A stretch of 64,000 nucleotides of DNA from Flavobacteriales bacterium (GTDB lineage Bacteria; Bacteroidota; Bacteroidia; JANQJC01), in the NCBI GenBank assembly GCA_028281825.1, contig JANQJC010000087.1, forward strand, positions 1-64,000, given 5' to 3'. The notes beneath the pieces were generated by a model. That model saw nothing but the letters and a program-made list of their open reading frames with translations. It did no database searches and was not told where the DNA came from. Positions 25,859-46,091 of this stretch are shown piece after piece. Both the position numbers and the translations under genes were made by a program. Positions within the stretch are counted from its first letter, which is position 1, and each line of letters starts with the position of its first letter.

Positions 25859-26971
25859 GTGAAAAAAGTACTTGTAGTATTTGGTACCAGGCCAGAAGCC
25901 ATTAAAATGGCTCCTTTAGTAAAGCAGCTGAAGAAATATCCCGATGATTTTCTTACAAAAGTTTGCGTGACTTCGCAACACAGGCAAATGCTTGACCAAG
26001 TGCTTGAGTTTTTTGACCTAACGCCTGATTACGATCTTGATTTAATGAAGCCAGGTCAAAACCTCTATGGCTTAACGGCAGCCATCGTAACTGGCATGAA
26101 GGATGTACTAGAGGATTTCAAGCCTGACTTCGTATTTGTTCATGGGGATACAACAACTACTATGGCGGCTTCTTTAGCGGCTTATTACAGTGGAGCCAAA
26201 GTTTGCCATGTTGAAGCCGGTTTACGCACACACAACAAGTGGGCACCATTTCCTGAGGAAATGAACCGCTCTATTACAGGTAGGTTAACAGATATACATT
26301 ATGCTCCTACAGAAAAGGCGAAGCAAAACCTTTTGAAAGAGAATGTTGCCGAGGGAAACATAGTAGTTACAGGAAACACGGTAATAGATGCCTTGCTAGA
26401 AAGTGTGGAGCGGGTTAAATCCAGTGAAAATGATATTATAGTTGGACTAAAAGGAAAGCTAAATGGTAAGCCTTTGGTTTTGGTAACAGGCCATAGGAGG
26501 GAAAACTTCGGTGATGGTTTTCTTAACATTTGTAAGGCCTTGGCCAATATAGCATCAGAAAATGATGTACAGGTAGTTTATCCAGTGCATTTAAATCCGA
26601 ATGTACAAAAGCCTGTTTACCAGATACTGAACAATAACGAGAATATATTACTCATTGACCCACTGCCATATGAAGCCTTTGTATGGTTGATGGATAAAGC
26701 GTACTTGATTATTACTGATAGCGGTGGCGTACAGGAAGAAGCACCAAGCTTAGGCAAACCAGTATTGGTGATGCGTGAAGTAACTGAAAGGCCAGAAGCC
26801 GTTGAAGCAGGTACTGTGATACTAGTGGGGACAGACAAAGAAAAAATAGTAAAAGAAACCGAACACCTATTAGGCGATAGCCAGCGATATGAAGCTATGA
26901 GCAAATTACACAACCCATATGGAGATGGTAAAGCGACGGAGCGTATTGTTGAGCATTTGCGAGGGTACTAA
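25859..26971 (+). CDS. wecB: UDP-N-acetylglucosamine 2-epimerase (non-hydrolysing)
   Basis: Interconverts UDP-GlcNAc and UDP-ManNAc in the cytoplasm. The 370 residues begin [20 protein letters not shown], the family hallmark, and contain [28 protein letters not shown] and the nucleotide-binding [15 protein letters not shown] block. It starts at a GTG; no ATG lies near. It is the first gene of the polysaccharide operon and is followed after 6 bases by wecC, so the pair makes UDP-ManNAc and then UDP-ManNAcA. The enterobacterial-common-antigen gene names are used for the enzymes only; the rest of the locus is not ECA-like. Confidence 0.95.
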
Positions 26972-26977
26972 AAAGAA

Positions 26978-28189
26978 ATGCAGGAAAGAATGAAAGTAGT
27001 AATGATGGGTTTGGGCTATATAGGCCTGCCTACTGCCGCTTTGATGGCTGCGAGAGGATTACAAGTGCATGGTGTAGATGTTAATCCTGATGTAGTAAGC
27101 ACAATAAACAAAGGGAAAATCCATATAGTTGAGCCAGACTTGGATGGTTTGGTACATCATGTGGTAAGCGATGGCACCTTAAAAGCTGACACGGCACCAG
27201 TAAAAGCAGAAGCTTACCTGATAGCTGTGCCAACACCATTTGTCGGCAACTATGAACCAGATTTAAAATATGTGGATAGTGCCACTGACATGATATCTCC
27301 ATATTTGGAGGAAGGTGCCCTTGTAATTCTTGAATCAACTAGCCCAGTTGGCACAACTGAAAGAATGGCTGACAGGATTTATGCTTCTCGCCCTGAGTTG
27401 AAAGGTAAGATACATGTTGCTTACTGTCCTGAAAGGGTATTGCCCGGTAACGTAATACACGAGTTGGAAAACAATGACCGTTCTATAGGTGGTATTGACC
27501 CTGAAGCTACAGAAAAAGCAATTGAGTTTTACGCACATTTTGTAAAGGGGCAGTTGCATGCGACCAATGCCCGCACCGCTGAGATGTGTAAATTGGTTGA
27601 AAACTCATATAGAGATACCAACATTGCTTTTGCCAATGAGCTCTCAATGATATGTGAGAAGGCTGGTATTAGTGTTTGGGAGCTTATCAAACTGGCAAAC
27701 AAACACCCAAGGGTAAACATCCTTGTTCCTGGCACAGGGGTGGGTGGCCACTGTATAGCAGTTGATCCGTGGTTTATCGTGAATGACTTCCCTGAAGAGG
27801 CTAAGATTATCCGTACAGCACGTGAGGTAAACAACTACAAAACAGAATGGGTTATAGAAAGGGTGGTGAATACTGCATTGCAGTTTGAGTTGGACAATGG
27901 TAAAAAACCTAAAGTGGCCTGCATGGGTCTGGCTTTTAAGCCAGATATTGACGATTTGAGAGAATCACCAGCTATACATGTAGTAGATGCCTTGAACGAA
28001 AGAGGTCTAGACTTGATGGTCATTGAACCTAATATTGAAGCACACAATAAATACACCCTCAATACTACCGAAGAGGGCTTGGAAAAGGCTAACATTATAG
28101 TATTTTTGGTAGGGCATAGAGACTTCAAAAAACTTGAGCTAATAGAAAGTAAACAGTATATGGACTTCTGCGGTGTACTTGAAGCCTAA
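26978..28189 (+). CDS. wecC: UDP-N-acetyl-D-mannosamine dehydrogenase
   Basis: Oxidises UDP-ManNAc to UDP-N-acetylmannosaminuronic acid with NAD+. The 403 residues show the N-terminal NAD motif GLGYIGLPTAALMAARG, the middle block STSPVGTTERM and the catalytic Cys259 in GTGVGGHCIAVDPWF. Homologous UDP-GlcNAc 6-dehydrogenases are similar, but the adjacent 2-epimerase supports ManNAcA. The ATG at 26990 (MKVVMMGLG) is an alternative start. The product gives the polymer a uronic acid, hence negative charge. Confidence 0.92.
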   Translation: MQERMKVVMMGLGYIGLPTAALMAARGLQVHGVDVNPDVVSTINKGKIHIVEPDLDGLVHHVVSDGTLKADTAPVKAEAYLIAVPTPFVGNYEPDLKYVDSATDMISPYLEEGALVILESTSPVGTTERMADRIYASRPELKGKIHVAYCPERVLPGNVIHELENNDRSIGGIDPEATEKAIEFYAHFVKGQLHATNARTAEMCKLVENSYRDTNIAFANELSMICEKAGISVWELIKLANKHPRVNILVPGTGVGGHCIAVDPWFIVNDFPEEAKIIRTAREVNNYKTEWVIERVVNTALQFELDNGKKPKVACMGLAFKPDIDDLRESPAIHVVDALNERGLDLMVIEPNIEAHNKYTLNTTEEGLEKANIIVFLVGHRDFKKLELIESKQYMDFCGVLEA

Positions 28190-28197
28190 ACACGCAT

Positions 28198-28968
28198 ATG
28201 AAAAAAGTCATCAAATATTTATTTTTGGTAGTCCTTTCTTTGGGGTTGTTAGTCTCCTGCACCTCACAAAAAAAGATTACTTATTTTCAGCCAATTTCCG
28301 ATTCTACTGATAATGAAGTCGCTACAATAGTTAATCCGTATAAGGAGGTTGTGCAAAAGGGGGATATTCTCTCAATCAAGGTGAATAGTTTGAGTCCTGA
28401 AGCTAGTCAGTTTTTTAATCCTTATACTCCAACTACCAGAACAACTACCGAAATAACCACAGAAGGCTATCAGGTGGATAATGAAGGCAATATTGAGTTG
28501 CCCTTGGTAGGCACTATACCAGTGGAAGGGATGTCATTCTCGGAAATAAAAAAGAAACTAAAAGTTGAACTGGAAAAGTATCTTCAAAACCCAACGGTTA
28601 GTATTAGGTTCCTTAATTTTCGTGTGACTGTTTTAGGTGAAGTAAACAGACCAGGTGTATTGCCAATTACAACTGGTCGGGTATCACTTCCAGAAGCTCT
28701 GGCTTTGGCAGGAGACCTCACAATTTTCGGTAAAAGAGATAATATCTTACTCATTCGGGAGATAGGACAAAAAAGGGAGTTTGTGAGAATAGATATCAAC
28801 AACAGGGAGTTTTTTGCTTCAAACTATTACTATTTGCAAAACAATGATGTAATATATGTTGAGCCAGGTAAAAACAAGAAAATCAATGCAGATACATTCT
28901 TCAAGATTGCACCTTGGATAGTGAGTGTAGCTATCTACACCTTCCTAATAATAAGAACAGTGAATTAA
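28198..28968 (+). CDS. Polysaccharide export lipoprotein (Wza-like, SLBB)
   Basis: A 256-residue outer-membrane polysaccharide export protein. Residues 1-21 are a lipoprotein signal ending LLVSC (Cys21). A polysaccharide export domain (about 55-130, VQKGDILSIKVNSLSPEA) and an SLBB domain (about 140-215, VTVLGEVNRPGVLPI) follow. A C-terminal hydrophobic helix (about 235-253) is probably a membrane segment; the chain is shorter than E. coli Wza, as is common in Bacteroidota. It sits directly before the chain-length/tyrosine-kinase gene, 6 bases apart, the usual partner in Wzx/Wzy export. Confidence 0.9.
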   Translation: MKKVIKYLFLVVLSLGLLVSCTSQKKITYFQPISDSTDNEVATIVNPYKEVVQKGDILSIKVNSLSPEASQFFNPYTPTTRTTTEITTEGYQVDNEGNIELPLVGTIPVEGMSFSEIKKKLKVELEKYLQNPTVSIRFLNFRVTVLGEVNRPGVLPITTGRVSLPEALALAGDLTIFGKRDNILLIREIGQKREFVRIDINNREFFASNYYYLQNNDVIYVEPGKNKKINADTFFKIAPWIVSVAIYTFLIIRTVN

Positions 28969-28974
28969 GCACTC

Positions 28975-31389
28975 GTGGAACAAAAGAAATCAATAAGCCT
29001 CCAAGAGGAAATAGATATTAAATTTTTGGCAGCCTTGTTTCTAAGGTACAAATGGTTATTCGCCATTTGTATGATTTTAGCCGTTGCAGGAGGAGTTGCT
29101 TTCCTAAAGTACTCCACGCATTACTACAAGGTTTCTTCTTCAGTAATCGTATCGCCAGATAATAATATGGCAACAGCTGACGTGGTTGAAGACTTGATTG
29201 GCCTTGGCTCTGAGGCTAATGTTGAGAATGAGATTGAGATACTTCACTCAAGAAGGATAATAGGTAAGGCATTGAATAACCTTGATTTCGGTATTTCCTA
29301 CTACGGTGATGGCAAAATCAAGAATAATGAGTTGTATAAGAGAACCCCTATTGTTTTAATAAGCGACTCTATCAATCAGTTCGCTTCTCAAGAGCTATCG
29401 GCTCGAATTACCTTACTCTCTAATAACGATTTCAAAATAGAGGTATTGGATAATAATGAAGTGCCTTTGCTGACTGAAAAAAAAGCGTTTGGAGAGTTTT
29501 TCAAATTTGGCAATATCAATGTAATGTGTGATAAAACGCCAAGGTTCACCGAGCTTTCAAGTGCCACTGAGATGGCTAATCGCATTTACCTGCTTAAGTT
29601 CTATTCAGATAACGACTTAATTAACTATTACCAAGATAAGCTGGATATCAAAGTGTCGTCTAAAAACGCTTCTGTACTTAGTCTTAGCCTTATTGAGGCT
29701 GTTCCTGAGAAAGGAAAAGACTTTTTGCAAGAATTGATGGACAGCTATATGCAGTATCAAATTGAGCAAAAAAACCTGCTTGCTGAAAACTCCATTCGAT
29801 TTATTGATCAGCAAATAAGCCTGATATCTGATGAGCTTTATAAGATTGAACAGGCAATACTTTCCTACAAATCATCAAAAGGGATAACCAGCCTTACTTC
29901 AGAGGCACAGATGTTTGCTGAGAGCCTTAAAGATGTGAATAATGATCTTGCTGAAGTAAATATGAAGCTGGGTTTTGTGACTAACCTTGAAAACTATGTA
30001 AAGAAGAACTCAAGTTTTGAGAATGTATCACCAGCCAGCTTTGGTATTGAGGACCCATTACTTACTAGTCTCATCATTAAACTTTCTACACTTGAATCAG
30101 AAAAATTGAAGTACAAGGGGATTACTAAATCAGATAATCCTATCGTAGCCTCCATCAATGAGCAAATCAGTTATGTAAAGCAAAGTTTGTTGGAAAACAT
30201 AACCAGCATCAAGTCTAGTCTTGAGATATACAAGAAGAACATTACTGATAATCTCACAGCACAAGAAGCCAGGGTAAAAACATTGCCCGAAGTTGAATAC
30301 CAATTAGTGGTTTTACAGAGGCAAAGGGCGATAAAGGAACAGTTGTACAACTACTTGCTGCAGAAAAAATCTGAGAACGCTATTCTCTTGGCTTCAACGG
30401 TTTCTGATAATAAGATACTGGATGATGCTGTTTCTTCTAAGCAGCGGGTTAAGCCTAAAACAACCGTCATCCTTTTTTACTCCCTGGTTTTAGGCTTACT
30501 TTTCCCATGTGTGGTGGTTGTTCTCAGAGAATCGCTTAACTCAAGAATTAAATCTGTTACTGATGTTGAGAATAATGCGAATGTTCCTGTTATTGGTATC
30601 ATTCCTAATAACGCAGGTAATAACCCACATGTGCTAATTGAAAAGCCGAAATCTCCTGTTTCTGAAGCCTTTAGGTTAATTAGGACGAACCTGCGTTATA
30701 TCAACCCCGACAACGACCAGAAGACCTATTTGATTACTTCTACAATTGGCTCAGAGGGTAAGTCGTTTTGTGCGTCTAATATTGCGTTATCTTTTTCACT
30801 TCTCAATAAGAAGACGTTACTTCTGGGTTTGGACCTTCGCAAGCCAAAGCTGTTTGGTGATTTTGGTTATGATAATACTAAAGGTCTTACATCATACTTG
30901 GCAGGTTCTTCAAATATGGAAGATGTTATCGTTCCATCTAAGAAGTCTGAATACCTTGATATAGTTTTTTCTGGCCCTATACCAGTTAACCCCGCTGAAT
31001 TGATTTTATCAAAAAGGTTAGAGGACTTCATGGCTTTTGCCAAAGAGAAATATGAGTTTATAATTATTGATACTCCACCGGTTGGTTTGGTGGCTGATGC
31101 CATTCTTTTGGCAAAGTACTGCTCAGCTTGTATCTATGTGGTGAGGGAAGGTTATTCTGATAAGGCATCGCTCAAGTTATTAAACCAACTAAATGACGAG
31201 AATAAGTTCCCAGGCTTGTCTGTATTGGTTAACTATGCTACTAATAGGTCTGGAAGTTACGGTGGTTATCAATATGGCTATGGCTACGGTTATGGTTATA
31301 AGAGTGACTATTACGAATTTGATAAAGAAGAAACACTGATTGCGAGAACCAGTAAAGGTTTCCGTAAACTATTTAAGCGCAAGAATTAA
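28975..31389 (+). CDS. Chain-length regulator and BY-kinase (Wzc-like)
   Basis: An inner-membrane polysaccharide co-polymerase fused to a bacterial tyrosine kinase; it controls polymer length and export. The 804 residues show a first membrane helix (about 28-46), a periplasmic Wzz domain with long coiled coils, a second helix (about 500-518), then the cytoplasmic kinase. The kinase has Walker A GSEGKS (about 591-596), Walker A' LLLGLDLRKPKL and Walker B FIIIDTPP (about 695). The C-terminal tail from about 761 is strikingly Tyr/Gly-rich (YGYGYGYGYKSDYYE) and would be the autophosphorylation cluster. It starts at a GTG. No partner phosphatase gene is seen in the window. Confidence 0.93.
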   Translation: MEQKKSISLQEEIDIKFLAALFLRYKWLFAICMILAVAGGVAFLKYSTHYYKVSSSVIVSPDNNMATADVVEDLIGLGSEANVENEIEILHSRRIIGKALNNLDFGISYYGDGKIKNNELYKRTPIVLISDSINQFASQELSARITLLSNNDFKIEVLDNNEVPLLTEKKAFGEFFKFGNINVMCDKTPRFTELSSATEMANRIYLLKFYSDNDLINYYQDKLDIKVSSKNASVLSLSLIEAVPEKGKDFLQELMDSYMQYQIEQKNLLAENSIRFIDQQISLISDELYKIEQAILSYKSSKGITSLTSEAQMFAESLKDVNNDLAEVNMKLGFVTNLENYVKKNSSFENVSPASFGIEDPLLTSLIIKLSTLESEKLKYKGITKSDNPIVASINEQISYVKQSLLENITSIKSSLEIYKKNITDNLTAQEARVKTLPEVEYQLVVLQRQRAIKEQLYNYLLQKKSENAILLASTVSDNKILDDAVSSKQRVKPKTTVILFYSLVLGLLFPCVVVVLRESLNSRIKSVTDVENNANVPVIGIIPNNAGNNPHVLIEKPKSPVSEAFRLIRTNLRYINPDNDQKTYLITSTIGSEGKSFCASNIALSFSLLNKKTLLLGLDLRKPKLFGDFGYDNTKGLTSYLAGSSNMEDVIVPSKKSEYLDIVFSGPIPVNPAELILSKRLEDFMAFAKEKYEFIIIDTPPVGLVADAILLAKYCSACIYVVREGYSDKASLKLLNQLNDENKFPGLSVLVNYATNRSGSYGGYQYGYGYGYGYKSDYYEFDKEETLIARTSKGFRKLFKRKN

Positions 31390-31427
31390 GCGCTACTGGT
31401 GTTAAATTCTTTTTAAGAGAAGCTTTC

Positions 31428-32762
31428 ATGTTAAAGAAGATACTTTCTTTTGGTGGTGTGGAAGCATTGGCAAAAGGCACCAACTGGCTTGCCCTTAGCC
31501 TTTTACCCATTCTTTTACCTGTAAATGAATATGCCAAAATTGGGCTTCTTGTTGCAGTTCAGGGGTTTTTAAACCTATTCTTTACAGCTGGGCAGGATAA
31601 GTTCATCTTCAGGTTTTATAAAGGACCAAAGAAAGAAAGGGTACACTTTAATATTCTCCTATTCCTATTCCTACTTGGGTTAACAGCTACTGTATTATGC
31701 GGGTCTTTTTTGTTGTTTAGCGGAAGGGCTGAAATCTTCAGTTTGGATCCAATTCTCGTATTTGGAATTATATGGGGAATGGTGCTTTTCTCAAGTAATA
31801 AAATCAGCCTATCGATTATTCGGCTGCGTTCCAACGTGAGGGAGTACGGTATCAATAGGTTGGTATATCAGTTTTCTCTCTTAATAATATTGTCCATAGT
31901 GGCTTATATCACTCGTATGAGTTTCTCATATGTAGTTGCGATGATTGGCGCTGCATTAATCATACTCAGTTTAGAGTATAGAGCTGGGCTGCTTAAACTA
32001 AAACCAGACTTCTCGCTTACAAAACGGTATCTCAAAATACTATTTCTGTGGGGATTGCCATTCATACTTCATTCGGCCTCAAAATCGGTTTTAATGTTTG
32101 TAGACCGCTTTTTGATAGAACAATATGGTGGTACCTATGATTTGGGTATTTATACTTTTGCCTATCAAATAGGGCAATCCATGTCCTTCCTTTTTTTCGC
32201 TCTTAACGTATATTTTGAGCCAATATATTACAAAGACAAAGGTGAAGGTATACTTACTCGATTCTTTCTTACCTCAAATACACTGGCAGCATTATTCCTT
32301 ATCGGAATTGTAGTGCTTCTTCCATTTGTAGTCACTCGTTTTTATCCTGCAGATTATATCAACTCACTTGATTATGTGCTGGGACTGGGGTGTTCATTTC
32401 TATTAAACCTATATTACATAGGCTATGCAAATAGATTGGTGAAACATAAGAAGGTTAAGTTTTTGGCAACTTCAACCTTTATAGCTGCCAGTACAAATCT
32501 TATTCTCAATTTTATATTGATACCCAAGCTAGGCATCAAAGGCGCCGTATTAACTAACTGGATTAGTTATGCCTTGTTGTCATATATATCTGGGTTCTTT
32601 TTCCGAAGAAGTATACTGCCAGATAAGCATCTAACTATAAGCCTTATAGTTACTGCTACACTATTGTTCGTGCCAATGAGTAACTTAGCAGCCTGTTTGA
32701 TACTGTTTGGGTATGTATCTATAAATGTCGCCGGTATCTATTATATGAGAAAAGCTAAATGA
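31428..32762 (+). CDS. Polysaccharide flippase (Wzx-like)
   Basis: A 444-residue protein almost wholly of membrane helices (about twelve), with the layout of the MOP-family flippases that turn undecaprenyl-linked repeat units to the periplasmic side. The N-terminal LSFGGVEALAKGTNWLALSLLPILL-type helix start and the SVLMFVDRFLIEQYGG segment are typical of Wzx/oligosaccharide flippase proteins. Its place between the export/kinase genes and a polymerase-like gene supports the role. Substrate specificity cannot be read from sequence. It overlaps the next gene by 4 bases (ATGA). Confidence 0.85.
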   Translation: MLKKILSFGGVEALAKGTNWLALSLLPILLPVNEYAKIGLLVAVQGFLNLFFTAGQDKFIFRFYKGPKKERVHFNILLFLFLLGLTATVLCGSFLLFSGRAEIFSLDPILVFGIIWGMVLFSSNKISLSIIRLRSNVREYGINRLVYQFSLLIILSIVAYITRMSFSYVVAMIGAALIILSLEYRAGLLKLKPDFSLTKRYLKILFLWGLPFILHSASKSVLMFVDRFLIEQYGGTYDLGIYTFAYQIGQSMSFLFFALNVYFEPIYYKDKGEGILTRFFLTSNTLAALFLIGIVVLLPFVVTRFYPADYINSLDYVLGLGCSFLLNLYYIGYANRLVKHKKVKFLATSTFIAASTNLILNFILIPKLGIKGAVLTNWISYALLSYISGFFFRRSILPDKHLTISLIVTATLLFVPMSNLAACLILFGYVSINVAGIYYMRKAK

Positions 32763-34144
32763 GACTAAAAACAAATAGGCTTATAATTAACATATTACTG
32801 GTGTTTTCAACATTATTGTTTTATGTCCATGGGGATAGTTACTTAGCCAAGTACGTTTTCATTCTGCAATTTTTTCTTTTCGCGCTATTTGGGCTCGTTT
32901 TTCCAAGAAAAATACTGTACTTTTTTTCACCCTCTTTTATTACCACAGCCTATATCTGCATTAATATGGCCATTGGCCTGTATGCATTCGAAAACGGGCT
33001 TATTTATAAACAGGTAATAGTTGCTTCTTATATCAATGACGAGGTTATACTTAGAGCCAGTTTAATGTTTTTTGTAGCCAACATTATCGTCTTCAATACC
33101 TTTAGGAATAGGATAAATAGTATAGATAGTGAAATGAGAAAGAAGGCTCACCAGTTTCAACTATCCAGAAACCAGGTTATTAAGTTCTTTATAATTATAC
33201 CTGTTCTGTTTGCGGTTGATATAGTCTCAGACAAGCTGGGCACCCAAGGTGGAATATTCACCATACCTGTTACGGTTTCTATACTTTATCTCTCTTATCT
33301 ATTGTCTCGTTCTCAAGAAAAGGGCCGGTGGATTTTTTACCCAATCATTATTCTCATCTCGCTTTTTCTTCAATTTGACTCTAAGAGAGAAGTGGTATTT
33401 CTTATTGGTGGTATCTTTATTATTGAGTCAATAAGTACTGTGCAGTTGCGCAGATTGAGTTCTACCCGGCTTTTTTTTACAGTTGTTGTTTTGGGTATAG
33501 CTGCCTTTTATCTCATTATAGCCATGTCAATTACCCGAGGCTTTGGGTATTATGGCGTGAAAAACCCGATTGAAGCACTCTCATACGTTGATGATTACAT
33601 ATCAGATGAGAATAATATACGTCTGGTGTTAAACAACATTGAAGCTACTACGGTATTTTTTCATTCTTATAACGCAATCGATATGTTTCTCACTAGAGAA
33701 GCACCAATGCTTTATGGAAAGACGTTCATTAAGATTGCATTCTTCCCCTTTCCTCGAAGTGTGCTGCCCATTAAGCCAAATAGCATCATTCATGAATATA
33801 CATATAGATATGACCCCTATTTAAGAGAAGAAGGTAGGTCAGTTGCGGTTTCATTATATCCAGAGTACTTTTGGAACTTCGATTGGTTGGGAGTCCTTGT
33901 ATTGTTTGGGGTGTTCTTTCTATTCAATGAAGCGTATTTCTATGGTATTAACTCCTATTTTGAGGGCAACATACAAATAGCAGTGATGGGAGTGTTTCTT
34001 ATAGCCTACTTTGTGGGGTACTTGCGAGGTTCAGGTATTGACCTATTCTTGCTATACCTGCTCATTGCATTCGGAACTATAAAACTACTCTACTACTTAA
34101 TAGGATCAAACAAGCTATATATTGAAGAAGATACCAATACTTGA
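32759..34144 (+). CDS. Oligosaccharide repeat-unit polymerase (Wzy-like)
   Basis: A 461-residue membrane protein with about twelve hydrophobic segments and one long hydrophilic loop (about residues 255-380, containing REAPMLYGKTF and LPIKPNSIIHEYTY). That layout is typical of Wzy polymerases, which are poorly conserved in sequence; the loop motifs recall the O-antigen polymerase family in which an ARG or PRS-type motif precedes a conserved ENE/NSI region. The assignment rests on topology and on position next to the flippase. It would join repeat units in the periplasm. It overlaps the acyltransferase gene by 23 bases. Confidence 0.7.
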   Translation: MRLKTNRLIINILLVFSTLLFYVHGDSYLAKYVFILQFFLFALFGLVFPRKILYFFSPSFITTAYICINMAIGLYAFENGLIYKQVIVASYINDEVILRASLMFFVANIIVFNTFRNRINSIDSEMRKKAHQFQLSRNQVIKFFIIIPVLFAVDIVSDKLGTQGGIFTIPVTVSILYLSYLLSRSQEKGRWIFYPIIILISLFLQFDSKREVVFLIGGIFIIESISTVQLRRLSSTRLFFTVVVLGIAAFYLIIAMSITRGFGYYGVKNPIEALSYVDDYISDENNIRLVLNNIEATTVFFHSYNAIDMFLTREAPMLYGKTFIKIAFFPFPRSVLPIKPNSIIHEYTYRYDPYLREEGRSVAVSLYPEYFWNFDWLGVLVLFGVFFLFNEAYFYGINSYFEGNIQIAVMGVFLIAYFVGYLRGSGIDLFLLYLLIAFGTIKLLYYLIGSNKLYIEEDTNT

Positions 34145-37271: not shown

Positions 37272-37275
37272 GGAG

Positions 37276-38199
37276 ATGAAAGACGTGATATTTATCGTAG
37301 GTGTGGGCCGTTCAGGCACTAGCCTTTTACAAAGTTTCCTAAATGCCCATCCTGACATCGCTTTTACTCCTGAAACTCAATTCGTAAGAAAGTACTTAGC
37401 GAAGGCATCCCTCAAAGCCAAGATAGAAGCTAATTCTGCATCTTTTTTTATTGACCTGCTCAAGCAGGATAAAGAATTTGCTCGTGCTAGTACCCAGCCT
37501 GAGAAGATTATCTCAGGGAGAAAGGTAAATGTGGTGGAGACTTATAAGGCCTTTTTAAATAACTACGCATCGGCAAAAAACAAAACTATAGCCGGAGACA
37601 AAGACCCACGCAATCTTGACCTAATAAAAACACTTTATCAGTACTTTCCTCAAGGAAAAGTAATTCACATTATTCGCGACCCAAGAGATGTTGTCTCTTC
37701 AAGGATGAAAGCTGATTGGTCCAGCAAAACACCTTTTATACTTCATCCTTTGATGTATAACGCTCAATTCCATCGCGGAAGAAAAATAGGGAAGAAATGT
37801 TATAAGGAGAACTATTTTGAGATAAACTACGAGACACTTATCTCTGACCCTGAAGATTCTTTGAAAGGGATTTGTGACTTTTTTGGGGTCAACTTTGAAT
37901 CAGCCATGCTCAACTTCTCTGAGTCATCAAAAGAGTTGGTTTCAGAAGCTGAAATGCAGTGGAAGAAAGAAACATTAGGCCCATTACTTTCAAAAAACAG
38001 TGGCAAGTGGCGTAAAACACTTAGCCCAAGTCAGATATACTACATTCAAACGCTTTGTAGCTCAGTTCTAGAAGAGTTTGGTTATGAACCAGATAAAATT
38101 TCCCCTTCAATAATAACTCGCATTTCGGCAGTGAGCATGAGGATTGTTTCGGTAATTTTTTCAGTTTTGTATCCACTAAGGATAAAATACTTGCTGTAA
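37276..38199 (+). CDS. Sulfotransferase (second of two)
   Basis: A clear member of the sulfotransferase family. The PAPS 5' loop FIVGVGRSGTSLLQSFLNAH sits near the N-terminus and the 3'-phosphate site IIRDPRDVVSSRM about 125 residues later. Length is 307 residues from the ATG at 37276. A frame open from a TTG at 37261 would overlap the preceding gene; the ATG directly begins MKDVIFIVGVG, the usual spacing to the loop. A C-terminal hydrophobic stretch (SMRIVSVIFSVLYPL) could associate with the membrane. Its target is probably a sugar of the polymer made here, since the neighbours are glycan genes; a small-molecule target cannot be excluded. Confidence 0.85.
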   Translation: MKDVIFIVGVGRSGTSLLQSFLNAHPDIAFTPETQFVRKYLAKASLKAKIEANSASFFIDLLKQDKEFARASTQPEKIISGRKVNVVETYKAFLNNYASAKNKTIAGDKDPRNLDLIKTLYQYFPQGKVIHIIRDPRDVVSSRMKADWSSKTPFILHPLMYNAQFHRGRKIGKKCYKENYFEINYETLISDPEDSLKGICDFFGVNFESAMLNFSESSKELVSEAEMQWKKETLGPLLSKNSGKWRKTLSPSQIYYIQTLCSSVLEEFGYEPDKISPSIITRISAVSMRIVSVIFSVLYPLRIKYLL

Positions 38200-39243
38200 A
38201 TGTTTTCTGCTGTAAGAGGTGTACGACCAGTTTTTCTCGAAAAAGGAGACCTATACCTTTCTAAAGGTTTTAGAATAGCCAAGGCTAACACAGATCATCC
38301 TGAGAAGTATGATATTATTTCCAGGTATGGAGGGTTGAAAGAAAGCCTTATATCTACTTCGCCTTTGGCAACTCGTATGTTGAGAGAAGGGATACATTTC
38401 TTCCTCCCTATGCCTAATGGACATCTTTTGATGGTGAGAAATAAACTTCTATTTAAGAAAGGAGGCGGCAATTACAAAGTTGTAATGGATATTTTTAAGG
38501 GAAGCAGACCCCTTAATATTTGTAAGGCAAGCAATGGCAGCCTTTATTTTGGAGAATACTTTTCTAACTCAGATAGAGGCGAAGTGAAGATATTTACATC
38601 CATTGACGGTGAAAATTGGGATGCGGCTTACACTTTTAAGTCGGGCACTATTCGTCATGTACATGGTATTTATGAAGATAGTTTCCGTAACGGCTTATGG
38701 GTTTTGACTGGAGATTCAGATGATGAGTCGGCGCTATGGTTCACTAATGATGGCTTCAAGACATTAACCCCATTGGGTAGGGGCAGCCAAAGAGCAAGGG
38801 CTGTTGGGATTATCCCTACTGAAAAAGGTATCATAGTTCCTATGGATAGCCCCCATCAGGTGAATTATATCCAGCTTTTTGAGCCTGAAACAGAGAAATT
38901 TACGGATTTAGCGCAGATAGGTGGTAGTGCTTTCCACGCCCAAAAATATGGGGATATCCACTTAGTGACCACCGTTACAGAACCTAGTCCAGTGAATATC
39001 ACCAATGCAGCTTACTTATATGGAAGCTTGGATGGTGAAAACTGGAAGTTGATAGAAGCTTTCAGGAGGGATATTTTCCCAGTTAAATACCAGAATTACA
39101 CCCGCTATTCTGAGATAGAGCTTTTGCCTTTTGATGAGAATACTTCAAAGTATATTTTTGCATATGCAAGGGCAGTCGCGAAGTATGACAACTGTATGCT
39201 TTGCTTTGATAAAGAAAAACTGCGCGCCCAAATAACAGGCTAA
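38200..39243 (+). CDS. Asp-box (BNR) beta-propeller-like protein
   Basis: A 347-residue protein that I cannot name. It carries Asp-box turns of the BNR/sialidase type: TSIDGENWDAAYTF, FTNDGFKTLTPLG and GSLDGENWKLIEAF, each fitting S/T-x-D-x-G-x-x-W or a near form. This predicts a beta-propeller. It has no signal peptide or membrane helix, so it appears cytoplasmic. The gene starts directly after the second sulfotransferase stop and its stop overlaps the start of the heparinase-like gene (TAATG), so it is tightly coupled to glycan modification. It may bind or act on the nascent glycan; no catalytic residues are recognisable. Confidence 0.6.
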   Translation: MFSAVRGVRPVFLEKGDLYLSKGFRIAKANTDHPEKYDIISRYGGLKESLISTSPLATRMLREGIHFFLPMPNGHLLMVRNKLLFKKGGGNYKVVMDIFKGSRPLNICKASNGSLYFGEYFSNSDRGEVKIFTSIDGENWDAAYTFKSGTIRHVHGIYEDSFRNGLWVLTGDSDDESALWFTNDGFKTLTPLGRGSQRARAVGIIPTEKGIIVPMDSPHQVNYIQLFEPETEKFTDLAQIGGSAFHAQKYGDIHLVTTVTEPSPVNITNAAYLYGSLDGENWKLIEAFRRDIFPVKYQNYTRYSEIELLPFDENTSKYIFAYARAVAKYDNCMLCFDKEKLRAQITG

Positions 39244-40793
39244 TGAAAAAACTACTGCTGTATTACAACACCCTTAAATACCTGCGGTGGCAGCAAGTGT
39301 TTTACAAACTGAAATACACGCTATTCAAACCTTCCAAAAAAATAAGCCCTCCTTCTAGCATTCAAACACATTTTGTGAAGGGTGATTTCTTGCCATTCAA
39401 TGGTGCCAGCGCAGATGGACAAACTTTTCAAATACTCAATAAAGAGGCAAAGTTTGATGACAAAATTAATTGGGACTACTCAGAAAACGGTAAGCTTTGG
39501 ACATATAATCTGAATTATTTTGACTACCTGAACAGCCCTGAATTAAGTATAGAACTTGGGCTAAAACTGATTGCAGACTACTGCACTTCAACTACAAAAA
39601 ATGGCAATGAGCCTTATCCAACTTCACTCAGGGGGATTAATTGGATTAAATTTATATCCCAGCACAAGATTGAGGACGGAACCATCAATAAACGATTGTA
39701 CGTTGACTACACGAGGCTTTGCCAACGTCCAGAGTATCACATCATGGGTAATCACTTATTGGAGAATGGAATTTCATTGCTGTTCGGAGCCTTCTTTTTC
39801 AAGGATGGCAAGTTCTTTTCCAAAGCCAATGAGATAATAACCAATGAATTAAAGGAAGAAATCCTGCAAGATGGCGGGCATTATGAGTTAAGTCCCATGT
39901 ACCATTCTATAATCTTGCAACGATTACTTGATTGCGTAGTACTCTTAAAGAACAATCAAGTATTTGAAACACAAGATAGTTTGCTAATTCTAGTAAGAGA
40001 CAAGGTGGGTAAAATGATATCGTGGTTACAAAAAGTGACCTTTTCAAATGGAGATATCCCTCTTGTGAATGATGCAGCTATGGGAATGGCTCCCATAGCA
40101 AAAGAGCTACTACACTTCGGAGAAAGACTGAAGATAAAATCAATTGTACTTCCCTTAAATGATAGTGGCTATAGAAAGTTAAACTCAGAAGAATTAGAAG
40201 TTTTGATTGACGTGGGTCAAATTGGCCCCGACTATATTCCAGGTCATGCTCATGCAGATACATTTAATTTCATCCTTTACCATCAAAGTAGACCTATTAT
40301 AGTTGATACTGGTGTTTCAACTTACAATATTGGCCCACAGAGAGATTTGGAAAGAAGCACGTCAGCACATAACACAGTGGTTATGAAAAACCAAGATAGT
40401 TCAGAAGTGTGGGCTGGTTTTAGAGTAGCTAAAAGGGCTAAGACCAAAATACTAGCTGACACCCCAAGTAAAGTAGTGGCCACTCATGATGGTTACTCAA
40501 GATTTGGAATAACTCATCTGCGTGAGTTTGAGATTACTACTGAAACATTTACTGTTAAAGATGATATTGGTAAAGATAACGGGATATCTTATTTACACTT
40601 TAGTCATGATATAAACCCTGAGTTGAAAGAAGAGAAAATAATAGCAGGTAGTGTAGAGATTGAGATACCTAATGTTGAAAAGATTGAAATTCAGCCTTAC
40701 ATGCAAGGTTTGGAGTTCAACAAACAAGTAGAAGCAAAAAAAGCCGTAATCTTTTTCAAAGGGCAGATAACTATTACCTTTGCGCCGAAATGA
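39243..40793 (+). CDS. Heparinase II/III-family protein without signal peptide
   Basis: A 516-residue protein of the heparinase II/III-like polysaccharide lyase superfamily. An alpha/alpha-toroid part (about 60-300) carries Asn170-His171 in HIMGNHLLENG and Tyr214/Tyr220-His221 in GGHYELSPMYH. A beta-sheet part carries GHAHADTFNF (His335, His337, Asp339), then a TSAHNTVVM block. These are the expected catalytic and metal-site motifs. Lyases of this family are normally exported, yet the N-terminus (MKKLLLYYNTLKYLRWQQVF) is basic and amphipathic with no signal peptide. Related folds include dermatan sulfate epimerase, so a uronyl C5-epimerase or an intracellular lyase are both possible. Coupled by a 4-base overlap to the PL6-like gene. 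Confidence 0.82.
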   Translation: MKKLLLYYNTLKYLRWQQVFYKLKYTLFKPSKKISPPSSIQTHFVKGDFLPFNGASADGQTFQILNKEAKFDDKINWDYSENGKLWTYNLNYFDYLNSPELSIELGLKLIADYCTSTTKNGNEPYPTSLRGINWIKFISQHKIEDGTINKRLYVDYTRLCQRPEYHIMGNHLLENGISLLFGAFFFKDGKFFSKANEIITNELKEEILQDGGHYELSPMYHSIILQRLLDCVVLLKNNQVFETQDSLLILVRDKVGKMISWLQKVTFSNGDIPLVNDAAMGMAPIAKELLHFGERLKIKSIVLPLNDSGYRKLNSEELEVLIDVGQIGPDYIPGHAHADTFNFILYHQSRPIIVDTGVSTYNIGPQRDLERSTSAHNTVVMKNQDSSEVWAGFRVAKRAKTKILADTPSKVVATHDGYSRFGITHLREFEITTETFTVKDDIGKDNGISYLHFSHDINPELKEEKIIAGSVEIEIPNVEKIEIQPYMQGLEFNKQVEAKKAVIFFKGQITITFAPK

Positions 40794-42214
40794 GAAATGC
40801 TTCTTGGTTAGCGCTTTTTGTGATGTCCTTTTTCTTGTCCTGTGGGGGAAGTACAACTCCAGTTGGTGACGGAAAAGGATTGGTGCAAAGTGAGGAGACA
40901 GAAGAGAAACTTACTAAAGAGGAAAGCACCGAACAACAAACCCCGAATATAGAAGAAGCTAAGCCCCAAGGTACTATGAGGTTGCCAAGTGATACCATTT
41001 TTTTGGAGGATGGTATCATAGATGGATATGAACTCAAAATCACAAAAAGCGGAAGCGAAGAAAGACCACTGGTGCTAAGTGCAAGGCATCCAGGTAAAAC
41101 AGTGATAACAGGTAACGTGAGGATTGAAATTTCAGGGTCTTACGTTCATGTTGTTGACCTTATTTTTAAGAATGTTCAATCGGTTGGAAAATATGTTGAT
41201 GTTATCAAGTTCACGGGCAATAGGAACAAACTAAGTAATTGTATCATATACAATACAGACAACTTTAAGAGTGAAAAAACCTATTACTGGGTTACTATTG
41301 ATGGAAAACGTAATGAAGTAAGAGGCAATTCATTTGTTGGAAAAAGCAATAAAGGGCCGCTGGTATATGTAGTTGCCGAAGACGCCAGAAATGGACATCA
41401 CGATATTTCCCAAAACCTTTTTGCAAGGATAAAACCATTGGGTGAGAATGGACTTTCGACAATACGTATCGGACTGAAATCTACAGAACCTGTAAGTTCA
41501 TTTACTACTGTAATGGGCAACGTTTTCCATAACTGTGACGGCGAAATTGAACTGATTAGCAGTAAAGCTAGCAATAACAGCTTTATAAATAACCTGGTTT
41601 ATGAGTCAAGGGGTGGATTGACCCTGCGTTGGGGTAATGATTGCAAAGTGGATGGCAACCAGTTTATATCCAAGAAAAATACCTCTATTGGGGTTCGGGT
41701 GGCAGGTAGTGGACATGAAATAAAAAATAACACTTTCAAGTTAGTGGGAGGCCCAAATGCTGCCGCCATTGTTTTGATGACAGGAAGCAAAAATACTGAA
41801 TGCGGATATCAACCTGCGAGAGATATCAGTATCCATGACAACGAATTCCATAATAATTCTGATTGGAAGATATTAGAGCAAGTGAATTGTGATGCAGGGC
41901 CTCAGTTTTTAGCTAAGGATAACTTTAAATTCAAGAATGGTCAACCTAAAGGTAAGGGCAGCGACTACTCCGTTGAAAGAAAGGTGGTGAGTACTAAGAG
42001 AAAGGGCAATAGCAAAATCTTGAAGGAAATTTATGTGATGAAGGCTCTTGAAGGTGAAGGAGAAAAGGAGAGCACCCCAAAAGTACAAATGCCAGATTTA
42101 AGCATAAGAACCAGGCTAGAGAGTAATGAAGGGTTTATTACTAGTTGGGTGCGCGCTTCTCACAGGATTAATAATGCGAAAGTTGGCTCAACTATAAAAG
42201 TTTCTAGCTTATAA
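40790..42214 (+). CDS. PL6-like (chondroitinase B/alginate lyase family) lipoprotein
   Basis: A 474-residue lipoprotein (lipobox FFLSC, Cys18) followed by an acidic linker and a parallel beta-helix of polysaccharide lyase family 6 type. The family core is visible: GEIELISSKASNN and ESRGGLTLRWGN, giving the catalytic pair Lys259 and Arg280 with the same 21-residue spacing as in chondroitinase B. The Arg-His-Gly seen in most members is Arg-Trp281-Gly here, so substrate contacts may differ. About 80 C-terminal residues after the helix are basic and unassigned. Anchored on the envelope, it could trim, release or remodel the polymer made by this locus (inference). Confidence 0.78.
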   Translation: MRNASWLALFVMSFFLSCGGSTTPVGDGKGLVQSEETEEKLTKEESTEQQTPNIEEAKPQGTMRLPSDTIFLEDGIIDGYELKITKSGSEERPLVLSARHPGKTVITGNVRIEISGSYVHVVDLIFKNVQSVGKYVDVIKFTGNRNKLSNCIIYNTDNFKSEKTYYWVTIDGKRNEVRGNSFVGKSNKGPLVYVVAEDARNGHHDISQNLFARIKPLGENGLSTIRIGLKSTEPVSSFTTVMGNVFHNCDGEIELISSKASNNSFINNLVYESRGGLTLRWGNDCKVDGNQFISKKNTSIGVRVAGSGHEIKNNTFKLVGGPNAAAIVLMTGSKNTECGYQPARDISIHDNEFHNNSDWKILEQVNCDAGPQFLAKDNFKFKNGQPKGKGSDYSVERKVVSTKRKGNSKILKEIYVMKALEGEGEKESTPKVQMPDLSIRTRLESNEGFITSWVRASHRINNAKVGSTIKVSSL

Positions 42215-42229
42215 TAGCAGACAGACGAT

Positions 42230-43438
42230 ATGCGGATTTTATATTTCTACCAGTTTTTTTCAACGCCCAAGGGCTCGTGGGGCACTCGTGTTTATGAGTT
42301 TGCTAAAGAGTGGGTGGAAAAGGGTCACGAAGTTACGGTGGTTACCAGTGTATTTGTGAAGTCTGATTTAAAGGCCGAGAAACTGATTGAAACCCAATAT
42401 TTCGACGATATTAAAGTAAAGGTGATTAACATCACCATGGACAACCGGCAAAGTATATTGAAAAGGATATGGACCTTTATGGCCTATGCCTTTCTTTCTT
42501 GTTGGTATGCCTTAACACTCAAAGCCGATGTTGTTGTAGCTTCTTCGGGGCCGATTACGGTTGGATTGCCAGGATTGGTCGCAAGATACTTGAGAGGTAG
42601 AAAATTGGTTTTTGAGGTAAGAGACCTTTGGCCAGAAGGGGCTATAGAATTAGGTGTAATTAAAAACCCAATCATCAAATCACTGTCACTTTGGTTTGAG
42701 AAAACATGTTATAGGGCTTCAGAACATGTCATTTGCCTTTCACCTGGAATGAAAACCCACATTGAAACCAAACATATAGGGGTGAAAGCAACTAGCGTAA
42801 CCAATGCAGCTAATGTTGAACTTTTCTCAACGTCACAGCCATTCCCAAAAGATGAAAAAGCTCTACAACCAAAGAAATATGCCATTTATACAGGTAATAT
42901 CGGAGAAGTGAATAATAGCTACTGGCTCTATAATGCAGCTGTTAAATTGAAAAAACTGGGTAGAAACGATATTAAAATTGTGCTGGTGGGCGAAGGGCAG
43001 CAGAGGATAGAATTACAAGAGTTAGCCAAGCAAAATGGTATAGACAATTTTATCCATAAAGGCCTAATGCCAAAAGAGGACTTGATACCTTATATACAAC
43101 ATGCAATGGTTTCAATGGTACCACTCAAAGGAACTCCCGTTTTGGATACTTCATCTCCGAACAAGCTATTTGAATCAATAGCAGCTGGTATTCCAGTTAT
43201 TCAAAATACCCAAGGCTGGATAAAAGATTTTCTGGAGGAGCACAAGATTGGCTATACCTTAAACCCTAATGACCCATTGCAATTGGCCGAGAAACTTATT
43301 TGGGTGGATGAAAACCCTGAAGAAATGAAGAGTATGGGAGAAGTAGCAGCTGAAGTGGCAAAAAAAAACTTTGATAAAACATACCTAGCTGATAAAATGT
43401 TGAATTGCCTTGAATCTGTTGCTAATGGCAAGAAATAG
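42230..43438 (+). CDS. Glycosyltransferase family 4 protein (WbuB-like)
   Basis: A 402-residue GT-B enzyme. The N-terminal domain opens MRILYFYQFFSTPKGSWGTR and contains FEVRDLWPEGAIELGV, a stretch typical of WbuB-like GT4 enzymes. The donor domain has YTGNIGEVN, VGEGQQRIELQELA and SPNKLFESIAAGIPVI. WbuB-like enzymes often add the second sugar to the lipid carrier, commonly an N-acetylated amino sugar; the donor here is unproven, though UDP-ManNAcA is made by the same operon. It is separated from the PL6-like gene by 15 bases. Confidence 0.9.
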   Translation: MRILYFYQFFSTPKGSWGTRVYEFAKEWVEKGHEVTVVTSVFVKSDLKAEKLIETQYFDDIKVKVINITMDNRQSILKRIWTFMAYAFLSCWYALTLKADVVVASSGPITVGLPGLVARYLRGRKLVFEVRDLWPEGAIELGVIKNPIIKSLSLWFEKTCYRASEHVICLSPGMKTHIETKHIGVKATSVTNAANVELFSTSQPFPKDEKALQPKKYAIYTGNIGEVNNSYWLYNAAVKLKKLGRNDIKIVLVGEGQQRIELQELAKQNGIDNFIHKGLMPKEDLIPYIQHAMVSMVPLKGTPVLDTSSPNKLFESIAAGIPVIQNTQGWIKDFLEEHKIGYTLNPNDPLQLAEKLIWVDENPEEMKSMGEVAAEVAKKNFDKTYLADKMLNCLESVANGKK

Positions 43439-43491
43439 ATTTGTTGTTTATAAAAAAATCCACAAGGTATATTTCATAGTATCGGAATAGT

Positions 43492-43499
43492 TAATTTTG
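43492..43499 (+). promoter_or_regulatory. -7 promoter box before the priming transferase gene
   Basis: TAATTTTG is an exact TAnnTTTG match, 25 bases before the ATG at 43524, in an 85-base gap. No -33 element with right spacing is seen. The priming transferase may have its own promoter within the locus. Confidence 0.45.
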
Positions 43500-43523
43500 A
43501 GCGGTTGAGAACCTGACCGATTA

Positions 43524-44945
43524 ATGGGAGCACCTAACATAAATAACTCCACTTCTTCTGCTTTTTATATCAGTAAATCTGAAAGAAAAAGATTGCTGAT
43601 GCTATTCGACTTGGTGTTACTAGTGGTGCTGTGCTTCACATTGCTTTTTGGCCTTAGAAATGGTGAGTTTAAATATTTGCCCAATCTCCTTTTATTAAAC
43701 ATCATCCTCTATTATGTGATTGCTCGCCTAACGGGCTTGTTTGATGACAGGTATTACGCATCCTGGAAAGCGATACTAGTTCGTTCTTTCATCACGTTTC
43801 TAATCCATTTTACCATGTTTTATGGTATTATGGGTATAGATTTCGATATCTTTAAAATGAAGGCCTTTGGAATGGCCATGGCACCCTTTCTCGGGTTTTA
43901 CATCATCAGTTATTTCATCAAGCTAGCATATAGGGCTTTAGTATTCTTAAAGCTTAAAAAGAACATTTTAATAGTGGGGGCCGGCAAATCAGGTGTTTTG
44001 ATAGCTGATTGCTTGATGGAAAACAAAAGGGTACAAAAAGACAGAACTTTCAATATTGTAGGGTTTATTGATGATAATAAAGAGGAAGACTACACCTATA
44101 GGGGAATAAAAGTGATTGGAAAAACGAATGATATAGACCATATCGTTGAAAAACATGGTGTGAAGGAAGTAGTTTTCGCAATCCAGAATACCAAAGGTGT
44201 ATCTGATGAGCTATTCAATAAACTACTGCTCTTCATTGAAAGTGGGATTGAGGTAAGTAATACCTTCAATAAGTATGAGGAATTGATGCAAAGGCTGCCA
44301 ATTGAGAAAGTGGGTAAAGACTTTTACCATTTCTTTCCTTTTGCCAAGACAAATAGCAGTATTTTTTATCTATCTATCAGCAGGATAATAGAGATAGTGT
44401 TAAGCATTATAGGCTTGTTTATCATGTTTTTGTTTATCCCACCTATCTTTATCGCTAACCTGATTTTTGCACCAGGCCCATTGTTCTATTCTCAGAAAAG
44501 GGTTGGTTTGTACGGCAAGGAGTTTAACTTGAGCAAGTTCCGCTCTATGGTAGTAGATGCTGAAAAAGGGGGTGCTAAGTGGGCAGATAAGAATGATAGC
44601 CGGACTACTAAAATCGGGGCGCTTTTGCGCAAAACCAGAATTGATGAATTGCCCCAATTTTTTGCAGTACTCAAAGGAGATATGGGACTAATTGGCCCTA
44701 GGCCAGAAAGAAAAGTTTTTGTTGACCAATTAAAAAAAGAGATACCTTTTTTTGAGGCCAGACACTTTATTAAGCCTGGGATTACTGGTTGGGCCCAAGT
44801 AATGTACAAATACGGAAACTCTACCAATGACAGCCTTATCAAGTTAAAGTATGACTTGTACTACATCAAAAATCGTTCTATAGCGCTTGATATCCAGATA
44901 ATTATAAAAACGATTTTCACGGTAATCAATTACAAAGGGCAGTAA
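43524..44945 (+). CDS. Undecaprenyl-phosphate sugar phosphotransferase (priming transferase)
   Basis: A 473-residue membrane enzyme of the WcaJ/WbaP polyprenyl glycosylphosphotransferase type that starts repeat-unit synthesis by moving a sugar-1-phosphate to undecaprenyl phosphate. Four N-terminal membrane helices (about 20-145) precede a Rossmann-like CoA-binding domain (KKNILIVGAGKSGVLIADCL). A re-entrant or membrane helix follows, then the catalytic bacterial sugar transferase domain (FSQKRVGLYGKEF has the motif SQKRVG; KFRSMVVDAE; the Asp-Glu dyad in RIDELPQF near 374; GLIGPRPE). Length and order are standard. The transferred sugar is not predictable with confidence. Confidence 0.93.
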   Translation: MGAPNINNSTSSAFYISKSERKRLLMLFDLVLLVVLCFTLLFGLRNGEFKYLPNLLLLNIILYYVIARLTGLFDDRYYASWKAILVRSFITFLIHFTMFYGIMGIDFDIFKMKAFGMAMAPFLGFYIISYFIKLAYRALVFLKLKKNILIVGAGKSGVLIADCLMENKRVQKDRTFNIVGFIDDNKEEDYTYRGIKVIGKTNDIDHIVEKHGVKEVVFAIQNTKGVSDELFNKLLLFIESGIEVSNTFNKYEELMQRLPIEKVGKDFYHFFPFAKTNSSIFYLSISRIIEIVLSIIGLFIMFLFIPPIFIANLIFAPGPLFYSQKRVGLYGKEFNLSKFRSMVVDAEKGGAKWADKNDSRTTKIGALLRKTRIDELPQFFAVLKGDMGLIGPRPERKVFVDQLKKEIPFFEARHFIKPGITGWAQVMYKYGNSTNDSLIKLKYDLYYIKNRSIALDIQIIIKTIFTVINYKGQ

Positions 44946-44946
44946 C

Positions 44947-45996
44947 TTAATTTACTTTGTAAAAGCTTTTGTACCAATCCACAAAATTTCCGACACCCTG
45001 TTTGAGGTCGTAACTTGGGGAGTAACCAAAATCTTCTTTCAAGGCATCAACGTTAGCATAAGTGATGGGAACATCACCAGGCTGAATAGGCATATAGTTA
45101 ATGTTCGCCTTCTTTCCCAGCTTTTCTTCAATGGCATGAATAAAATCCATTAAAGGAACAGGATTGTTATTTCCTATGTTGTAGACCTTATAAGGCGCCA
45201 CTGAGCTTGCTGGGTTTGGAGCGTCTCCCTTCCATGAAGAATTGCTTTGTGCTGGCCTTATCACTACACGGCTAATACCTTCTGTTATATCATCCACATA
45301 GGTGAAATCACGTTTCATATCCCCGTGATTGAATACGTCGATGGTTTCGTCGTTCAAAATAGCCTTGGTAAACAAGAAAATAGCCATGTCAGGCCTTCCC
45401 CAAGGCCCGTACACTACAAAAAAACGCAAACCCGTAACTGGTATTTGATATAAATGGCTGTAAGCATGGGCCATCAGTTCATTGCTCTTTTTGCTAGCTG
45501 CATAAAGGGAAATAGGATGGTCTACATTATCAGAAACAGAAAAGGGGATGCTCTCATTCAACCCGTAAACGCTGGAACTGCTAGCATATACCAAGTGCTT
45601 AACAGGATACTGTCTGCAAGCTTCCAAAACATTGAAGAAGCCATTCACATTATTACCCATGTAGGCATTCGGTTTAATCACTGAATACCTAACACCAGCC
45701 TGAGCTGCCAAATGAACTACATAATCAAATTGGTAAGTTTTAAAAAGGTTAAGCAAGCCATCGTGGTCTTGGATGTCGAGCTTTACAAAAGTGAAATTGG
45801 TTTTACCCTCAATGGAATGATTTTCAACGGGATTGGTGTCAACTCCTAGCTCTTTCAAACGAGCCAATTTCAACGCAGGGTCATAGTAATCATTCAGGTT
45901 ATCGATACCCACAACTTCATGACCATCATCTAGCAATCTGGCTGCCGTATGCATCCCAATAAATCCTGCACAACCTGTTACCAGAACTTTTGCCAC
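44947..45996 (-). CDS. NAD-dependent epimerase, probable UDP-glucuronate 4-epimerase
   Basis: An extended short-chain dehydrogenase of 349 residues. It opens VAKVLVTGCAGFIGMHTAARL with the NAD motif, has ASSSSVYG, the catalytic YAASKK (YxxxK) and RFFVVYGPWGRPDMA, a block characteristic of UDP-glucuronate 4-epimerases (CapI/GAE type). It would interconvert UDP-GlcA and UDP-GalA. The frame extends up to an ATG at 46098, but that would add 34 residues without family support and overlap the divergent gene at 46092; the GTG at 45996 is therefore chosen. It is convergent with the priming transferase, one base apart, and likely feeds the same polymer. No UDP-glucose dehydrogenase is in the window. 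Confidence 0.87.
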   Translation of the reverse strand: MAKVLVTGCAGFIGMHTAARLLDDGHEVVGIDNLNDYYDPALKLARLKELGVDTNPVENHSIEGKTNFTFVKLDIQDHDGLLNLFKTYQFDYVVHLAAQAGVRYSVIKPNAYMGNNVNGFFNVLEACRQYPVKHLVYASSSSVYGLNESIPFSVSDNVDHPISLYAASKKSNELMAHAYSHLYQIPVTGLRFFVVYGPWGRPDMAIFLFTKAILNDETIDVFNHGDMKRDFTYVDDITEGISRVVIRPAQSNSSWKGDAPNPASSVAPYKVYNIGNNNPVPLMDFIHAIEEKLGKKANINYMPIQPGDVPITYANVDALKEDFGYSPSYDLKQGVGNFVDWYKSFYKVN

Positions 45997-46076
45997 TTGA
46001 TAGAATTGACCTGAGGTGATTAATTGCCCAAAAGTAAGCCTTTTAGTGAGATAGCAAATTAATCGTTTCTCTTGAT

Positions 46077-46084
46077 TACTTTTG
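46077..46084 (+). promoter_or_regulatory. -7 promoter box very close to the first RemB/Wzi-like gene
   Basis: TACTTTTG is an exact TAnnTTTG match ending 7 bases before the ATG at 46092. If used, the transcript would be nearly leaderless. A clear -33 box is not seen. Confidence 0.4.
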
Positions 46085-46091
46085 TAATTGG

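Follow-up and report, generated by a model that had tools for sequence, protein, structure and literature searches.

The window, a stretch of 64,000 nucleotides on one contig (C23) of the 4.02 Mb draft genome of a Flavobacteriales bacterium, carries a compact set of genes for the assembly and export of a polysaccharide (Table 1). A 40-genome search for relatives of this bacterium returned none closer than the class. The genes from 25859 to 44945 all lie on the plus strand in a nearly gapless run, most of them separated by a few bases or overlapping, with larger gaps of approximately 40 bases ahead of the flippase gene and approximately 85 bases ahead of the last gene, which encodes the initiating transferase. 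The original prediction had described one nearly gapless run of genes; its last member, the epimerase-like gene, is encoded on the opposite strand and probably starts at a GTG codon near position 45993. The predicted gene content and positions were confirmed by family profiles and coordinates, apart from the omission of a pair of probable outer-membrane beta-barrels, relatives of which adjoin the HEP and GT4b genes in eight loci of one family. Further downstream the window encodes a Mur ligase-alanine racemase fusion protein (53331-55820) and a 1532-aa protein (57344-61942) that combines YadA head repeats with an S74 endosialidase-type chaperone domain at its C-terminus.

Table 1. Genes of the polysaccharide locus and its flank, in window coordinates
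Feature	Position	Strand	Basis
wecB, non-hydrolysing UDP-GlcNAc 2-epimerase	25859-26971	+	TIGR00236 505.6 bits, cut-off 210
wecC, UDP-ManNAc dehydrogenase (yields UDP-ManNAcA)	26978-28189	+	PRK11064 549.5 bits, cut-off 459
Wza-like polysaccharide export protein (Poly_export and SLBB)	28198-28968	+	Pfam 68.8 bits
Wzc-like chain-length protein with tyrosine kinase domain	28975-31389	+	Wzz, GNVR and eps_fam above cut-off
Wzx-type flippase	31428-32762	+	Polysacc_synt 35.3 bits, cut-off 28.2
Candidate Wzy polymerase	32759-34144	+	About 10 hydrophobic segments; adjoins Wzx
Membrane O-acyltransferase (Acyl_transf_3)	34122-35174	+	111 bits
GT4 glycosyltransferase a	35174-36328	+	Glycos_transf_1 72 bits
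ST1, divergent sulfotransferase	36321-37271	+	Sulfotransfer_3 30.5 bits
ST2, PAPS-dependent sulfotransferase, member of conserved cassette	37261-38199	+	Sulfotransfer_3 118 bits
PROP, cytosolic beta-propeller, family unnamed	38200-39243	+	Model pLDDT 91, pTM 0.91; propeller fold matches; synteny
HEP, signal-less heparinase II/III-fold protein	39243-40793	+	Hepar_II_III_C 145 bits
PL6-family lipoprotein	40790-42214	+	Chondroitinas_B 203 bits; PDB PL6 matches
GT4 glycosyltransferase b (GT4b, WcaI-like), usual HEP neighbour	42230-43438	+	Pfam cut-off passed; synteny
Initiating polyprenyl glycosylphosphotransferase	43524-44945	+	Bac_transf 206 bits; TIGR03025 331 bits, cut-off 296
UDP-glucuronate 4-epimerase-like SDR	44947-46098	-	Best PDB match 5u4q 447 bits; 6zl6 151 bits
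Outer-membrane beta-barrel a, probable	46092-47696	+	Relatives beside HEP-GT4b
Outer-membrane beta-barrel b, probable, paralogue of a	47696-49333	+	Relatives beside HEP-GT4b

The locus has the initiating transferase, flippase, chain-length and export proteins of a Wzx/Wzy-dependent system, and the Wza/SLBB protein, the Wzc-type kinase, the flippase, the Acyl_transf_3 protein, both GT4 enzymes and the Bac_transf protein all score above their Pfam cut-offs. The candidate Wzy polymerase, a multi-pass membrane protein, matched no family in the Pfam scan. Together with the genes for UDP-ManNAcA, this set supports the Wzx/Wzy export of a sulfated uronic-acid polymer that had been predicted, and the locus would join a known kind, the bacterial sulfated EPS loci. 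Judged from the genes alone, the product is very probably an acidic, sulfated Wzx/Wzy polysaccharide, which need not be a glycosaminoglycan in the strict sense of a repeating uronate-hexosamine disaccharide. The host genome probably also supplies a UDP-glucose dehydrogenase, since a gene on contig C127 matches the TuaD model with 550 bits, below the cut-off of 700. Polysaccharide-degrading loci are the typical setting of heparinase-fold and PL6 genes, and the PL6 relatives inspected do sit in such loci, which might point to the breakdown of host or algal glycosaminoglycan or alginate; but Wzx, Wzc, Wza, the initiating transferase, the glycosyltransferases and the nucleotide-sugar genes form a single run, neither a SusC/D pair nor a sulfatase was recognised among the locus proteins scanned with Pfam, and HEP carries no export signal. 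A degradation locus is thus rejected by gene content and is highly improbable.

ST2 combines the Sulfotransfer_3 domain with the 5'-PSB and 3'-PB motifs of PAPS-dependent sulfotransferases, and its motifs GVGRSGTSLL and IRDPRDVVSS are kept in the cassette copies aligned, whereas the match of ST1 to the same domain is real but weak, just above the cut-off of 27 bits. The host genome encodes both PAPS synthesis and PAP removal, with CysN, CysD, CysC and CysQ together on contig C102, and two further sulfotransferases besides ST1 and ST2. PAPS supply is not decisive as proof of sulfation, because a CysH candidate exists on contig C13 and PAPS therefore need not be devoted to this purpose. In locus L043 of the Bacteroidetes genome RI_431 (G038), CysQ-like, CysC and CysD/CysN-like genes share a locus with ST2, PROP and HEP, as does a 587-aa sulfate-transporter-like gene, named from its N-terminus only. 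Two clusters elsewhere in the class (L124 and L125, in genomes G045 and G083) each hold several sulfotransferase plus acyltransferase genes and are possibly other sulfation loci.

Five modification genes (ST1, ST2, PROP, HEP and PL6) had been expected to travel together, and a co-occurrence analysis gave a split outcome in which three do and two do not. ST2 and PROP are adjacent in seven loci, namely the window, L043, L044 in Chromatiaceae CTD079, L045-L047 in Neomarinimicrobiota (L045 and L046 being nearly alike) and L142 in genome G465, which span Bacteroidota, Gammaproteobacteria and Neomarinimicrobiota. HEP follows directly in six of the seven, while in L044 it is found 4.3 kb further on with an integrase-type gene in between. 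Across six of these loci the pairwise identities of ST2 correlate with those of PROP (r = 0.95) and of HEP (r = 0.78), values that are descriptive only since the sequences are related; GT4b is less similar, at 18-26% to the window copy. PROP is rare, occurring in 3 of 247 class genomes (single-sequence search), in 7 of 396 phylum genomes (alignment search) and in 15 loci of the genome collection. HEP occurs in 17 of the 247 class genomes, including all three with PROP, a coincidence with a chance of 3e-4 by hypergeometric count. No relatives of ST1 were found in the 247 class genomes, and with the PL6 relatives confined, where inspected, to degradation-type loci, ST1 and PL6 are private to the window locus in the samples searched. 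A single co-inherited five-gene system is rejected on these grounds.

HEP accompanies uronate polysaccharide loci more widely, in most cases with no sulfotransferase present: most HEP loci inspected hold no ST2 relative, and HEP is followed there by a GT4 gene, frequently together with wecBC, a WecB-like gene or a bi-domain oxidoreductase. One example of this last, recurrent neighbour (zinc dehydrogenase plus GFO/IDH) lies at 12707-14833 in L038. The association with UDP-ManNAcA or WecB-like genes extends to plasmids, with HEP accompanied by wecC, wecB and one GT4 gene in Parabacteroides, and the HEP-GT4 pair and wecBC flanked by IS26 copies in Escherichia coli. L128 (NZ_CP147102.1, 59073-78458), on an E. 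coli conjugative plasmid, is a mobile surface-polysaccharide cluster with the order wecB-wecC-polymerase-GT-HEP-GT4 between two IS26 elements. The wide distribution of HEP and GT4 in uronate loci that lack a sulfotransferase, enterobacterial plasmids included, would suit an acidic capsule or O-antigen-like polymer that is not glycosaminoglycan-like, in which sulfate is minor or the sulfotransferases serve another acceptor such as lipid or protein; bacterial sulfotransferases also modify lipo-oligosaccharides, for example Nod factor (PMC8205485). This is nevertheless unlikely, as the position of ST2 next to PROP-HEP is fixed in different phyla, and one locus holds the three genes together with PAPS genes.

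PROP has no Pfam family match and no signal peptide was seen, but its model is a confident beta-propeller and the sequence has three Asp-box-like motifs. Searches of the PDB by sequence or fold returned generic propellers only and did not reveal its identity. Distant PROP genes adjoin AAC(3)-like acetyltransferases in L053-L055, NodU-like carbamoyltransferases in L050 and L052, and a polysaccharide deacetylase in L048, and on a Segatella plasmid AAC(3) is encoded two genes upstream of PROP. The PROP family thus seems to accompany glycan-modifying enzymes, and the protein looks like a partner of such enzymes.

The structure model of HEP (pLDDT 87) has the alpha/alpha toroid and beta-sandwich of the heparinase II/III fold. 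Sequence inspection and hydropathy, used in place of a dedicated predictor, indicate that the N-terminus is not hydrophobic and hence signal-less. Residues N170, Y220 and H335 are invariant in an alignment of 18 proteins, and their counterparts in Pedobacter heparinase III are the catalytic residues N240, Y294 and H424. The fold search placed PL12 HepC at the top, followed by PL33, PL17 and human dermatan sulfate epimerase 1 (6hzn, E 1e-10). Sequence identity is 15-16% to HepC-type entries and 10% to the epimerase, and unlike either of these HEP is signal-less and encoded in a biosynthetic locus. Members of the heparinase fold are mostly lyases, and epimerase and lyase are inseparable by sequence, because the catalytic residues are common to both.

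A clue to the activity comes from L143 (genome G420), where wecB, GT, PROP, PF06662 and GT4b genes follow one another on one strand. The PF06662 protein (D-glucuronyl C5-epimerase family, 132.9 bits) occupies the exact place of HEP between PROP and GT4b. We take this as a putative non-orthologous replacement of HEP, of which, with the propeller present, there is one case; the two belong to different Pfam families and their functional equivalence is presumed. PF06662 genes also adjoin GT4 genes in several further EPS-like loci. The host genome has a PF06662 family protein of its own, with a lipoprotein-like start, on contig C91 (89103-89651; L189 of genome G000), away from the polysaccharide locus. 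HEP could also be a true lyase for quality control or recycling. ST2 and PROP would then decorate the polymer, and HEP would cut stalled or mis-assembled lipid-linked chains that contain uronate in the cytosol; it has the fold and the catalytic residues of a PL12 lyase, and the locus holds an apparently active PL6 lyase as well. However, Wzx/Wzy assembly offers little long polymer to a cytosolic lyase, many of the loci that retain HEP showed no PL6 relative, and at L143 its place is taken by a PF06662 protein. We consider this recycling scheme, like lyase activity of HEP in any form, rather unlikely. The PF06662 gene in the HEP slot is the best hint to the activity of HEP and favours a putative cytosolic C5-epimerase role on the lipid-linked repeat over depolymerisation. 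The epimerase possibility raised for a lyase-fold protein in the original prediction thus gains support from synteny; we give C5-epimerase an even chance, with other roles sharing what epimerase and lyase leave.

The PL6 protein has the family domain, a lipoprotein-like start, the Lys/Arg catalytic pair and the acidic metal ligands of a PL6 lyase. Residues E252, E254, K259 and R280 are kept with the spacing of E243, E245, K250 and R271 in chondroitinase B, and its closest solved relatives in the PDB are alginate PL6 lyases. Known catalytic residues are hence intact in both HEP and PL6, and the lyase-fold proteins of the original prediction are supported. It is plausible that PL6 is a trimming or clearing enzyme local to the host genome.

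From these components a pathway can be proposed. The initiating transferase and the GT4 enzymes would use UDP-ManNAcA, and probably UDP-GlcA/GalA, to assemble a lipid-linked repeat. HEP would act on this repeat at the cytosolic face, probably by C5 epimerisation of a uronate as in dermatan sulfate epimerase, and ST2 (and ST1) would transfer sulfate to it from PAPS, still in the cytosol, with PROP as the partner of a modifying enzyme. Wzx would then flip the repeat unit, Wzy polymerise it and Wzc/Wza export the product, which the PL6 lipoprotein, outside the cytosol, may trim or clear much like AlgL in the case of alginate. The full assignment, a sulfated uronic-acid exopolysaccharide or capsule made by Wzx/Wzy with HEP as C5-epimerase, ST2 as sulfotransferase, PROP as partner and PL6 as trimming enzyme, is the one that we cautiously favour. 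The resemblance to alginate biosynthesis lies in a uronate polymer with its own epimerase (AlgG) and lyase (AlgL). Alginate biosynthesis is synthase-dependent, with periplasmic epimerisation and protein folds other than those encoded in the window.

The closest described systems share parts of this arrangement. The synechan xss cluster of Synechocystis likewise serves a sulfated EPS of the Wzx/Wzy type and includes two sulfotransferases, but it is located on a cyanobacterial plasmid, no heparinase is mentioned, and PROP, PL6 and UDP-ManNAcA genes are absent from the quoted gene list (PMC8205485). In Pontiella, for which a sulfated polymer was measured, a PF13469 sulfotransferase lies within a putative EPS cluster for glycosaminoglycan-like sulfated exopolymers; this organism belongs to the Kiritimatiellae, its set of glycosyltransferases differs and a heparinase gene is unmentioned (PMC7356697). 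A sulfated-polysaccharide region in a cyanobacterial MAG from Shark Bay mats reportedly includes heparinase and mannose dehydrogenase genes; it is not treated there as a module, no propeller was seen in the passages considered, and it is an unexplored precedent for the combination (PMC9723792). No published description of the ST2-PROP-HEP module was found in the mainly open-access literature searched, which on heparinase genes in O-antigen/EPS biosynthesis also yielded nearly nothing beyond the Shark Bay report.

As a broader and tentative possibility, ST2-PROP-HEP could be a horizontally spread module whose product would be uronate repeats that are sulfated and C5-epimerised in the cytosol while still on the lipid carrier. 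HEP would then be a new class of heparinase-fold prokaryotic uronyl C5-epimerase and PROP a new accessory family for glycan-modifying enzymes, and bacteria would have a counterpart of their own to dermatan/heparan sulfate modification. The synechan authors knew of no sulfotransferase genes in any other bacterial EPS cluster (PMC8205485), and the Pontiella authors state that prokaryotes are not known to encode glycosaminoglycan-active sulfotransferases (PMC7356697); a three-gene module that crosses phyla provides a handle on both statements. It also gives a testable role to signal-less proteins in capsule and O-antigen-type loci that are annotated as 'heparinase' or 'alginate lyase family'. Should HEP indeed be an epimerase, such annotations are misleading, and the enzymes that bear them could help to make sulfated polysaccharides.
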